In this document: in pieces, positions 13,983 to 17,431 of the stretch
Layout: every line of letters begins with the position of its first letter
How positions within the stretch are numbered: position 1 is the stretch's first letter
NCBI GenBank assembly: GCA_913061265.1
Contig: CAJXVS010000008.1
Span: 124,001-188,000, forward strand
Length of the DNA stretch: 64,000 nucleotides
Direction: 5' to 3'
Source of the DNA: an uncultured Halobacteriovorax sp.
Lineage (GTDB): Bacteria; Bdellovibrionota; Bacteriovoracia; Bacteriovoracales; Bacteriovoracaceae
Program-made: the position numbers and the translations under genes
Notes under the pieces: model-generated
The model's input: the letters and a program-made list of their open reading frames with translations, nothing else
Databases searched by the model: none
Told to the model about the DNA's origin: nothing

Positions 13983-14636
13983 ATGGATCAATTTTCTCAC
14001 TATCGCCGTGAATTTCTAGAACAAATCATTCTTTCGGAGAAACAGATCTTAATCGTAGAAGGTTTTTTGAAACTGGCCGAAACCCATGGGGTTCCCAATG
14101 TGACCATGCAGAAGTTGGCGGATGAGTTAAAGATAAGTTTAGGCAGCATTCATTATCACTTTGGAAACAAAGATGGGCCTAGCCTTCTTGATTGCGCCAT
14201 CCTTCATGTTTCTCAAGAATCAATTAAGTATATTAATTTCTATATAGAGAGGGCCCTTTCAAATGGAAGCTTTGAAGGCATCTCTTCTTACATACAAGTG
14301 CTCTATGATTTCTGTAGAAACTACCCTCATCATGGAAGGCTATGGCTTTATTTTTACTACCTCTCAATCTTTGAATCTAAAGAGCGCGAGAACAATCAAA
14401 ACTATATTCCTTTAATGAGAAATAGGATTGAGCAAGTCCTCACTCTATCAGTGGGAAAAGGCATCTATCCAAAGCTTAAGAACTTAACTCAACTAAGCCA
14501 AAAGATTCATTACACAATCATTGGCGCTCTCATCTTAGCCGGCGGTGATAAGAAAGATCCTCTTTTTAAAGAGGCTCAAATAAACGCTATCGAAAGCTCA
14601 ATTGCCTTAATCAAAGATCATGAGGAAGAAGCTTGA
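13983..14636 (+). CDS. TetR/AcrR-family transcriptional regulator
   Basis: 217 residues, typical for the family. The N-terminal helix-turn-helix is clear at about residues 20-65 (VTMQKLADELKISLGSIHYHFGNKDG); the remainder is the helical ligand-binding/dimerisation part. A ribosome site (AGGGGC) stands before the ATG. The stop overlaps the start of the DUF819-type membrane protein gene (TGATG), so the two are translationally coupled. A 17-bp palindrome in the upstream gap is the likely operator for autoregulation, and possibly for the divergent sphingolipid-type operon. The ligand is unknown. Confidence 0.9.
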   Translation: MDQFSHYRREFLEQIILSEKQILIVEGFLKLAETHGVPNVTMQKLADELKISLGSIHYHFGNKDGPSLLDCAILHVSQESIKYINFYIERALSNGSFEGISSYIQVLYDFCRNYPHHGRLWLYFYYLSIFESKERENNQNYIPLMRNRIEQVLTLSVGKGIYPKLKNLTQLSQKIHYTIIGALILAGGDKKDPLFKEAQINAIESSIALIKDHEEEA

Positions 14637-15745
14637 TGGCAGCCCAATTAATAATCTTTCTCATCTTGCCTTATCTTTTTAAAAAAGGGGAAGAGCGCTT
14701 TAAGTGGATGTCATTCTTTGGAACAGTTGTGTGGTGTTATCTTTTTGGTATTATCATTGGTAATACGGCCTCGTCCTATATTGATTTAAAGTTAACTAAT
14801 AGCTTAATAGAAGTATCAGTTCTTCTGGCCGTCCCCCTTCTTCTGTTCTCTCTTGATATAAAGGCCTGGCTTAAAAATACAAGATCTACCATTATTAGCT
14901 TTATCATAAGCTTAGTTAGTATAAGCCTTGCCACCCTCAGTGTTTCTTTAGCCTTCCCTAAAGGAAACCTAGAAACTTGGAAGCTCGGAGGAATGCTTGT
15001 TGGGGTCTATTCAGGAGGCACTGTTAATATGAGCGCCATCGGAAAGTCCTTAGAAGTTCCTAACGAGACTTTCTTAATGGTGAACGCCGCAGATATACTA
15101 ATCTCATCAATCTATATGTTGATAGTTCTTATGGGAGCAAAAAAGATCTTAAGTCGGTTCCTACCTGCCTATAAATACCAAGATATAAAAGATCAGGATA
15201 TAAGCGATGGCGATGCTTTTCAGTTTAAAGCCGCGGGGATTGCCATTGCCCTTGCCCTCTTAGTTGTTGCTGTAAGCCTAGGCCTCTCTACTCTTTTCTA
15301 TGGTGAACTCTTCGCTCCTTTTATCCTCTTGATATGCACCAGCCTCGGTATCCTCTTTTCTCTAATTAAAAAGATACAAGCAAACCCAAGCTCTTTTAAA
15401 TCCGGCGAGTATATTCTTTATATTTTTTGTATAGCACTTGGAAGTCTTTGCAACTTTAACAACCTAAGCACCAATGCTCCTGAGATCCTACTCTTTGTCA
15501 GCTTGGTTTTAGTCATGGCAATCCTCTTACATTTTATTGGTGCCCGCTTCTTTAAGATTGATGCTGATACCGCTCTGATCACAAATGTGGCTGCGGTCTT
15601 TGGTCCGGCTTTTGTAGCTCCCGTGGCCCGCTCCCTTGGCAATAAGCAAGTTATCGTCTCTGGCCTTACTTCTGGTCTTATGGGCTATGCCTTTGGAAAC
15701 TATCTTGGTCTGGCCATGGCCCATCTTATCAAGGCCCTTCTTTAG
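14636..15745 (+). CDS. DUF819-family polytopic membrane protein
   Basis: 369 residues from the ATG at 14636, whose A is the last base of the tetR stop. About ten membrane helices are evident, with conserved family stretches GGMLVGVYSGGTVNMSAIGK and the C-terminal VAAVFGPAFVAPVARSLGN. DUF819 (YjcL-like) proteins resemble anion/organic-acid carriers in layout, but the substrate is not established. Being coupled to a TetR regulator suggests the regulator's ligand is a substrate of this carrier. No terminator with a T-run follows; the next gene has its own promoter. Confidence 0.8.
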   Translation: MAAQLIIFLILPYLFKKGEERFKWMSFFGTVVWCYLFGIIIGNTASSYIDLKLTNSLIEVSVLLAVPLLLFSLDIKAWLKNTRSTIISFIISLVSISLATLSVSLAFPKGNLETWKLGGMLVGVYSGGTVNMSAIGKSLEVPNETFLMVNAADILISSIYMLIVLMGAKKILSRFLPAYKYQDIKDQDISDGDAFQFKAAGIAIALALLVVAVSLGLSTLFYGELFAPFILLICTSLGILFSLIKKIQANPSSFKSGEYILYIFCIALGSLCNFNNLSTNAPEILLFVSLVLVMAILLHFIGARFFKIDADTALITNVAAVFGPAFVAPVARSLGNKQVIVSGLTSGLMGYAFGNYLGLAMAHLIKALL

Positions 15746-15752
15746 AGAGGGC

Positions 15753-15787
15753 TTGACTTACTTGCATATTTGTGCAAATATACATCT
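15753..15787 (+). promoter_or_regulatory. arsR promoter with operator dyad
   Basis: TTGACT (15753-15758) and AAATAT (15776-15781) are spaced 17 bp. The perfect dyad ATATTTG-tg-CAAATAT (15766-15772 / 15775-15781) lies over the spacer and -10 box, the usual layout for an ArsR-type autorepressor. The -10 box ends 6 nt before the ATG at 15788. Confidence 0.65.
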
Positions 15788-16090
15788 ATGAAGATAGATC
15801 TTACAAAATTGACCACTCTTTTTAAGGCCCTTTCAGACGAGAATCGCCTCAAGATGCTTGCCCATGTTTGTAACTGCAAAGAAACAAATGTGAATGTAGG
15901 TAGCTTTGCTAGCTGTTGCGATATTGATTTTTCGGTAGTCAGTCGACACCTATCGAAATTGAAATCGGCTGGAGTGCTACGATCAGTTAAAAAGGGTAAA
16001 GAAGTTTTCTATGATCTTGAAGGCAAAGAACTTGCCAAGCAGTTGCGCGCGCTTGCTGATTTTATTGAAAGTTCTAACAAATGTTGTTAA
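15788..16090 (+). CDS. ArsR/SmtB-family metal-responsive repressor
   Basis: 100 residues from ATG 15788 (a longer reading would start inside the promoter). Winged-helix layout: LFKALSDENRLKMLAHV, then recognition helix DFSVVSRHLSKLKSAGVL and wing VKKGKEVFYDL. Cys residues are plentiful: CNC near 29-31, CC near 43-44 and a C-terminal CC, all plausible metal ligands. It likely binds the dyad in its own promoter and leaves it when metal or metalloid binds. The tiny Cys-rich gene 11 bp downstream is presumably cotranscribed. The inducing metal is unknown. Confidence 0.9.
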   Translation: MKIDLTKLTTLFKALSDENRLKMLAHVCNCKETNVNVGSFASCCDIDFSVVSRHLSKLKSAGVLRSVKKGKEVFYDLEGKELAKQLRALADFIESSNKCC

Positions 16091-16101
16091 CTGGAGGAAT
16101 T

Positions 16102-16221
16102 ATGAGTGAGCAAGTAGAGAAGAATACGGATTGTAAATGTGGTTGTTGTGGGTGTTCTTGCAGCAAGGCAGATCTATCCGCTTTTTTAAAACACTTAGCA
16201 GACTTCTTTGATAAGAAGTAA
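16102..16221 (+). CDS. 39-residue cysteine-rich peptide (metallothionein-like)
   Basis: An ATG preceded by a strong GGAGGAA at 16093-16099 opens a 39-codon frame ending TAA at 16219-16221. The peptide has six Cys in ten residues (CKCGCCGCSC, positions 11-20) and then a helix-forming tail (ADLSAFLKHLADFFDKK). It follows the ArsR-type gene by 11 bp and precedes a strong terminator, so the two form a two-gene unit. Dense CxC/CC packing is typical of metal-binding peptides such as metallothioneins, but the sequence is not one I recognise. A metal buffer or metallochaperone controlled by the repressor is the simplest reading. Confidence 0.8.
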   Translation: MSEQVEKNTDCKCGCCGCSCSKADLSAFLKHLADFFDKK

Positions 16222-16227
16222 TTATCA

Positions 16228-16260
16228 GGCCATGCACCAAAACTTTGGTGCATGGCCTTT
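16228..16260 (+). terminator. terminator after the arsR/peptide unit
   Basis: GGCCATGCACCAAA (16228-16241) pairs base for base with TTTGGTGCATGGCC (16244-16257), followed by TTT. It separates the unit from the convergent CxxCH gene ending at 16259 and can act in both directions, though T-runs are short. Confidence 0.75.
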
Positions 16261-17431
16261 AATGATTTGCTCCAAAGGCACGGAAGAAGTCTTCCGCTTC
16301 TCGCTTTGTATAACCTCTATCAATAAGATCATCGACATCCTTTACGAGAGGTTTTTGCGGAAGAGGTGAAAACTTTCCGTTGTTACCTTTATGGCATTTT
16401 ATGCAAGCGTCTTTAACTTTTACTTGCCTGCTTCCAAGCTTGAATGTCTCTCTCGCCACCCAATCGCCGTCGACTTTCTCATAATAAAAAGGCTCAAACT
16501 CTCCGGTCTTTCTATTCAATGAAATCACTTCAATGGAGCGCTCTTCTTTAATCACCCTACCATCAGGAAGCTTTGTTTTACTTGAATTAATAGCAATTCT
16601 CATGTCGTCCATGGCAGCGTCCCTCGTCGAGCTGCCCGTTGGAGAATCGGCGGCTTCAACTTGTCTCTTAGGCCACCAAACTTCTCTAGAGGCGCCCTCG
16701 CCATATTCTTTTGTAATGGGAGACTTACTCTTTGCCCCATCGATACGCGCTCTCTCCCACCAAAGATCAACCCCTCCTTGATAGAGGCTCTTATCTCTAA
16801 AAGAATTAGTTTTCACCATCTCATCAACTGAGCCAGCGAACCGAGTGGCAAAGAGATCTGATGCACTGGTGGCCTGGGCCAAGATTTCACGTTCATGAGT
16901 AGCTGGTTTAGTAAAAAGCGTCCTATAATTATCTAGGATTCCTTGTCTTGGAGGAAAACCAAAGAGCCCACTCTTCATGGCGACCACTTGCACGTCAGGG
17001 TCTACAATTCCTGCCTTTCTCATGGCCTCAACCTGGAGCTTAAAGTTCTCCATTGGTAAACTCTCAACAACAGTGGGCTTACTTCCCCAGCTCTTCGCTC
17101 GGTCAACTTCTGCTTTCGTGCCTTTACTTTTAATTCTTGAGAGAGCAAATTTTTGCCTTAGGGAAAGTTTTAACTCTATGCCAAGTTCTTTTTTAACAGC
17201 TTCTTCAAGCTTAGTGCCTCGGCTTAACTTCGAGCTTAAAACATTCTCTACCACTTCATCTTTTGTAAAACGAGCTTGTCTAGCCTGAAGGGAGGCCTCA
17301 GACTTTACCACTTTCCCTGAACTAACAGAGCTAGAGACGACACTCTCTAGCGCCTTAACACCATCACTACAAGTAGAGTTTGCCTTAGGCAAAAACAAGG
17401 TGAAAATGAATAGAAAAAGCAGAGTTTTCAT
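16259..17431 (-). CDS. exported protein with C-terminal CxxCH haem motif
   Basis: 390 residues with an N-terminal signal peptide (about 1-19). Near residue 350 it has ACIKCHKG, the CxxCH motif for covalent c-type haem attachment, followed by a short tail. The preceding region (WWPKRQVEAADSP, ERSIEVISLNRKTGEFEPFYYE) recalls cytochrome-P460-like or perioxidase-associated domains in wording, but I cannot assign a family. A long N-terminal helical, Lys/Ser-rich part (about 20-130) has no known counterpart. It probably acts in the periplasm. No cytochrome biogenesis genes lie nearby. A lone CxxCH could also occur by chance, so haem binding is probable, not certain. Confidence 0.6.
   Translation of the reverse strand: MKTLLFLFIFTLFLPKANSTCSDGVKALESVVSSSVSSGKVVKSEASLQARQARFTKDEVVENVLSSKLSRGTKLEEAVKKELGIELKLSLRQKFALSRIKSKGTKAEVDRAKSWGSKPTVVESLPMENFKLQVEAMRKAGIVDPDVQVVAMKSGLFGFPPRQGILDNYRTLFTKPATHEREILAQATSASDLFATRFAGSVDEMVKTNSFRDKSLYQGGVDLWWERARIDGAKSKSPITKEYGEGASREVWWPKRQVEAADSPTGSSTRDAAMDDMRIAINSSKTKLPDGRVIKEERSIEVISLNRKTGEFEPFYYEKVDGDWVARETFKLGSRQVKVKDACIKCHKGNNGKFSPLPQKPLVKDVDDLIDRGYTKREAEDFFRAFGANH

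Follow-up and report, generated by a model that had tools for sequence, protein, structure and literature searches.

The ArsR-peptide gene pair

The window, meaning the whole 64,000-nucleotide stretch analysed here, contains a two-gene unit in which an ArsR/SmtB-family repressor gene is followed by a gene for a short cysteine-rich peptide. The unit recurs in related genomes, and the C-terminal tail of the peptide resembles the dimerisation helix α5 of ArsR. We consider it fairly probable that the pair constitutes a self-regulated sequestration operon, with As(III) or MAs(III) as the most likely ligand and with the α5-like tail pairing with ArsR or with itself. The locus lies on contig 8 of the 3.97-Mb host genome, and the named relatives are Bacteriovorax, Halobacteriovorax and Bacteriovoracaceae. 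Its parts are as follows.

15753–15784, + strand: promoter, with −35 TTGACT at 15753–15758 and −10-like AAATAT/TATACA within 15776–15784
15762–15777, unstranded: predicted operator TTGCATATTTGTGCAA (TTGC-N8-GCAA), one copy, conserved in relatives
15788 (ATG) to 16088–16090 (stop), + strand: ArsR/SmtB-family repressor gene, 100 aa (NF033788 score and ORF)
16093–16097, + strand: Shine-Dalgarno GGAGG of the peptide, read from the sequence
16102 (ATG) to 16219–16221 (stop), + strand: cysteine-rich peptide gene, 39 aa, MSEQVEKNTDCKCGCCGCSCSKADLSAFLKHLADFFDKK (ORF)
Within the peptide: Cys cluster, residues 11–20; ArsR-α5-like helix, residues 22–38
16227–16258, + strand: 14-bp hairpin 3′ of the operon, probably its terminator, with no good T run

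The open reading frames, coordinates and cysteine count bear out the sequence-only reading, which had described an ArsR repressor with a 39-residue CKCGCCGCSC peptide (six cysteines in ten residues) at 15753–16260. The ribosome site that it had called strong is present as GGAGG, and a Shine-Dalgarno sequence precedes the peptide in every relative. As read from the sequence, the operator is located between the −35 and −10-like elements, and the ArsR ATG stands directly 3′ of the promoter, making the gene almost leaderless. The hairpin (−26.4 kcal/mol, z −6.1) sits between convergent genes and is the probable terminator of the operon. A clear promoter/operator and terminator had also been claimed; the operator, promoter elements and 14-bp hairpin are found, but the hairpin, lacking a proper T run, is absent from the terminator scan, as is the promoter from the consensus promoter scan.

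Directly upstream on the same strand, a TetR-type regulator and then a DUF819 membrane protein occupy 13983–15745, outside the conserved unit. On the minus strand, convergent with the operon, 16259–17431 encodes a 390-aa protein without a Pfam match, whose C-terminal CIKCH motif is a possible haem site.

Conservation of the peptide and its linkage to ArsR

A profile of the peptide C-terminus (A3) yields 16 matches in 16 of the 368 genomes of the phylum, the window's own included, one each at E values up to 0.001. Each shares its contig with an independently located ArsR of the window's ArsR subfamily and lies 38–104 bp downstream of it. The frame is therefore kept in 15 other genomes, each time beside ArsR, in agreement with the expectation that relatives would carry the peptide next to ArsR genes; loss of the frame in relatives had been named beforehand as the result that would count against the idea. 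Within the family, ArsR relatives have short cysteine-rich ORFs directly 3′. Twenty genomes of the phylum have an ArsR match at E 1e-35 or better, and in all four of these without a tail match a cysteine-rich ORF still lies 3′ of ArsR. In three of the four (G017, G009, G262) this ORF is tail-less, and in the fourth (G095, locus L014) it carries a diverged tail, SISDALRKLAKSIENCC. In L014, an outlying relative, CC comes after the peptide helix (SIENCC), and directly downstream is a methyltransferase-like ORF (MSKQYFEEVAPQWDEMRK...).

As judged from substitution patterns, the frame is a real protein under purifying selection, since pS (0.51–0.89) is far above pN (0.03–0.34) in six pairs. Hairpins are found at the same place 3′ of the peptide in most relatives, several with T runs. 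An Rfam search of the locus gives no match. It is very improbable that the ORF is spurious and the conserved element a leader RNA or terminator region: the ORF is very short and no family model matches it, but pS exceeds pN in all six pairs, every relative has a Shine-Dalgarno sequence, and peptide length varies among relatives while the cysteine-rich pattern persists.

Searches of Pfam and NCBIfam with the window's peptide return noise only (SUZ12 Zn, GSU3529). Pfam metallothionein families give no hit up to E 1 with this peptide or up to E 10 with seven relatives, so that by sequence search it belongs to no metallothionein family known in Pfam.

The ArsR subfamily and its predicted operator

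The window's ArsR scores 63.1 bits against the NCBIfam metalloregulator model NF033788 (cut-off 55), and no NCBIfam equivalog model is passed. Its cysteines are Cys28, Cys30, Cys43, Cys44, Cys99 and Cys100. A scan of one genome per species over 84,980 species returned 80 ArsR loci, in which the residues of VDxSVVSRHL are invariant partly because this pattern was itself used in the scan. Cys43 and Cys44 are present in all 26 peptide-linked ArsRs and in 57/60 and 56/60, respectively, of the ArsRs not linked to a peptide. A C-terminal cysteine pair occurs in 14 of 17 tail-linked ArsRs. The conserved set comprises Cys30, Cys43 and Cys44 with a frequent C-terminal pair. In the ArsR tree the peptide-linked proteins group together (SH-aLRT 90, with few supporting columns), except that two arsM-linked rows fall inside the group and L014 falls outside. 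No ArsR relatives were found on plasmids at E 1e-8.

The motif TTGC-N8-GCAA stands upstream of ArsR in 16/17 tail loci, 6/9 loci with tail-less peptides and 35/60 other loci. Its density is 2.7–8.0 per kb upstream versus 0.015–0.048 per kb in the rest of these loci; because the loci were picked by protein, this enrichment is independent evidence. ArsRs of this subfamily are therefore predicted to have one common operator. The dyad noted earlier in the promoter is present, and what relatives conserve is specifically TTGC-N8-GCAA rather than any dyad. In the window's own genome, TTGCNNNNNNNNGCAANTAT (the operator pattern with the following NTAT) occurs once, at the ArsR promoter; from this search, restricted to sites with the trailing TAT, the regulon there is probably the ArsR-peptide operon alone.

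Most tail loci (for example L003, L004 and L011) have two operator copies about 31–41 bp apart; the window has a single copy, since the gene before it extends to 15745. In L004, L005, L006 and L009 the operator touches the ArsR start codon (ATGCAAATATGAAG), so the arsR mRNA in these loci is probably leaderless or nearly so.

Downstream genes and the likely ligand

What follows this ArsR type and operator varies with lineage: often arsM or acr3 in Planctomycetota, Myxococcota and others, and a cysteine-rich peptide in Bdellovibrionota, Emcibacteraceae, Alteromonas and Calditrichota. Judged by a strict motif, many of the 60 non-peptide loci carry arsM or acr3 shortly 3′ of ArsR, and none of those assigned to the tail or tail-less peptide groups does; a few non-peptide loci that a loose Cys-ORF rule picked out in high-GC DNA were left out of the peptide groups. 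NCBIfam confirms three of these downstream genes as arsenite methyltransferase (NF008823, 276–287 bits, cut-off 263) or ACR3 (TIGR00832, 372 bits, cut-off 283). The window's own genome has no ACR3, and arsenic handling there is otherwise undocumented.

Because arsM or acr3 follows sister ArsRs that have this operator, As(III) or MAs(III) is a likelier ligand than Cd, Zn or Cu, and the inducer is probably one of these two or another thiophile. The interpretation given in the sequence-only reading is partly borne out, this preference among ligands being absent from it. Its proposal of a minimal metal buffer controlled by a Cys-rich ArsR fits the conserved two-gene unit with its predicted operator, Shine-Dalgarno sequence and hairpin, and the peptide is likely a sequestering output that replaces methylation or efflux. 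In L036, L037 and L038, the ArsR-peptide pair has a gene for a cation diffusion facilitator upstream.

The helical tail and ArsR helix α5

The tail consensus, (V/I)A-x-F-L-R-H-(L/V/I)-A-(E/D)-F-F-(D/E)-K, aligns in register with the ArsR α5 consensus L-A-x-x-L-R-x-L-A-D-x-I-E (hhalign probability 90.8, E 1.2e-6). When scored with a PSSM built on the partner ArsRs, the tails are outranked by no more than two of 401,802 sequence windows, and 10 of 20,000 shuffles that preserve the hydrophobic pattern reach the observed tail score. With a PSSM from ArsRs without a tail peptide, 44/20,000 such shuffles reach it, and the tails fall in the top 0.04–0.55 percent of 40-residue chunks, the best-scoring of which are ArsR pieces. 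The ranks from both matrices serve as guides, much of the background being not real protein.

When the window's peptide is folded alone, residues 22–38 form a helix. The helical tail of the sequence-only reading is thus found in the model, and its profile points to an amphipathic helix resembling α5 rather than a generic one. A generic amphipathic helix is possible, since designed coiled coils are weakly matched by the tail profile as well; a PDB sequence search with this profile finds only such coiled coils, analogues of amylin and other helices that match by chance. Homology of the tail to α5 by duplication is possible, and convergence on an α5-like helix is equally allowed. Tail and α5 show no pairwise sign of coevolution (27.0 for same-genome versus 27.0 for different-genome pairs). 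Among the sampled ArsR loci, the tail is seen only in Bdellovibrionota.

In L032 the ArsR and peptide genes are in frame, and the two were folded by AF2 as one chain with the stop read as Ser. The model (mean pLDDT 79.1) contains the ArsR's own α5 at 87–104, a disordered linker at 109–129 and the tail helix at 133–147. Its best fold match is AfArsR (6j05, Z 13.1), and CzrA and SmtB also match. The VIA alignments of CzrA, SmtB, CadC, HlyU and others end at model positions 144–149, inside the peptide helix and not in the ArsR's own α5. This suggests that in this one, artificially tethered model, with VIA ranges giving first and last residues only, the tail is placed on or near the α5 site. The tail may dock on ArsR or drive self-association of the peptide.

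Proposed mechanism and alternative explanations

In the sequestration operon that we favour, a ligand-free ArsR dimer would occupy the TTGC-N8-GCAA site in its own promoter. ArsR would leave the DNA once its cysteines bind a thiophilic metal(loid), As(III) or MAs(III) being the most likely; Cys30, Cys43, Cys44 and perhaps the C-terminal pair are the candidates. ArsR and the peptide would then be synthesised, the clustered thiols of the peptide would capture the metalloid, and the drop in free ligand would restore repression. The tail helix probably pairs the peptide with ArsR or with itself, and may couple sequestration to sensor reset. Points that speak against this reading are the absence of ACR3 from the window's own genome, the C-terminal cysteine pair missing from some tail-linked ArsRs, the lack of pairwise coevolution and the weak match of the tail profile to coiled coils. 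We are doubtful of the stronger form, in which the peptide carries a copy or mimic of α5 and docks as a pseudo-subunit, coupling buffering to reset.

A less likely explanation is that the peptide is an ordinary tiny Zn, Cd or Cu metallothionein under a Zn/Cd-type ArsR, its tail merely stabilising or oligomerising it with no contact to ArsR. The Zn/Cd sensors CzrA, SmtB and CadC are the nearest solved sequence relatives, SmtB-SmtA offers a classic precedent, and three Emcibacteraceae-type loci have a cation diffusion facilitator gene some 0.4–1 kb upstream of ArsR. Against it, the same subfamily and operator elsewhere precede arsM/acr3, and the tail carries invariant residues of α5.

We are equally doubtful of a chiefly regulatory role, in which the peptide would act as an antirepressor or metallochaperone, docking on the ArsR dimer by its α5-like helix and loading or stripping sensor metal or breaking the dimer. 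The resemblance to α5, the strict adjacency to ArsR and the many ArsR structures whose aligned ranges end in the peptide helix of the L032 model would fit such a role. On the other side, the pLDDT of the helix is no better in the fused chain (about 80) than alone (75–83), and the same ArsR type also occurs with tail-less peptides.

Quite improbable is a membrane-binding amphipathic helix that holds the metal-binding peptide at the inner membrane. Nearly all family members have an amphipathic tail with a Phe-rich face, but the window's tail has a net charge near zero, and the α5-specific L-R/K-x-hydrophobic-A-D/E is kept beyond the hydrophobic pattern (10/20,000 and 44/20,000 shuffles).

Relation to known systems

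The ArsR/SmtB repressors of metallothioneins include those of SmtB-SmtA (Synechococcus), AzuR-NmtA and BxmR (PMC8790569). In its DNA anatomy the window's pair is of the SmtB-SmtA type, sharing with these systems an ArsR/SmtB-type repressor gene, an inverted repeat over the promoter and a small cysteine-rich protein (PMC8790569). It differs in being a co-directional two-gene operon with another operator, in its ArsR of the arsM/acr3-linked type, and in a 39-aa peptide that has no Pfam match and ends in a 17-residue α5-like helix. The pair thus appears to vary the ArsR/SmtB-metallothionein theme, the α5-like tail being new.

Like the As(III)-responsive R773, AfArsR, CgArsR, SpArsR and ArArsR, the window's ArsR is a winged-helix repressor with clustered cysteines, and its close relatives precede arsM/acr3; unlike theirs, the output of the pair is a peptide. 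Published As(III) triads are Cys32/34/37 in R773, Cys95/96/102 in AfArsR and Cys15/16/55 in CgArsR. By published descriptions of types 1–3, Cys30/Cys43/Cys44, near the DNA-binding helix, have no obvious match among these site types (PMC11868830). The Emcibacteraceae, Alteromonas and Calditrichota loci share the ArsR subfamily and mostly the operator; unlike the window's peptide, their adjoining cysteine-rich ORFs (30–34 aa) have no helical tail, and they are not described in the papers found. In the openly licensed literature searched, the ArsR-cysteine-rich-peptide pair is undescribed, and queries for metallothionein with Bdellovibrio and for ArsR with small Cys-rich proteins returned nothing relevant.

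Bacteria are known to handle arsenite mainly by efflux or methylation. Intracellular arsenite chelation is classed as eukaryotic (PMC11868830). If our reading is correct, one ArsR subfamily and operator would serve interchangeable outputs (arsM, acr3 or a cysteine-rich peptide), adding a bacterial sequestration route. We know of no metallothionein that contacts its own sensor; should the tail bind ArsR, this peptide would be the first. As a tiny and portable unit, the pair could be useful as a biosensor or buffer module. In L041, L057, L090 and other ArsRs of the Planctomycetota type, the C-terminus is extended by a cysteine-rich stretch (CCPDGACGEGRGKGGCCG is an example), reminiscent of a fusion of the peptide to the repressor.
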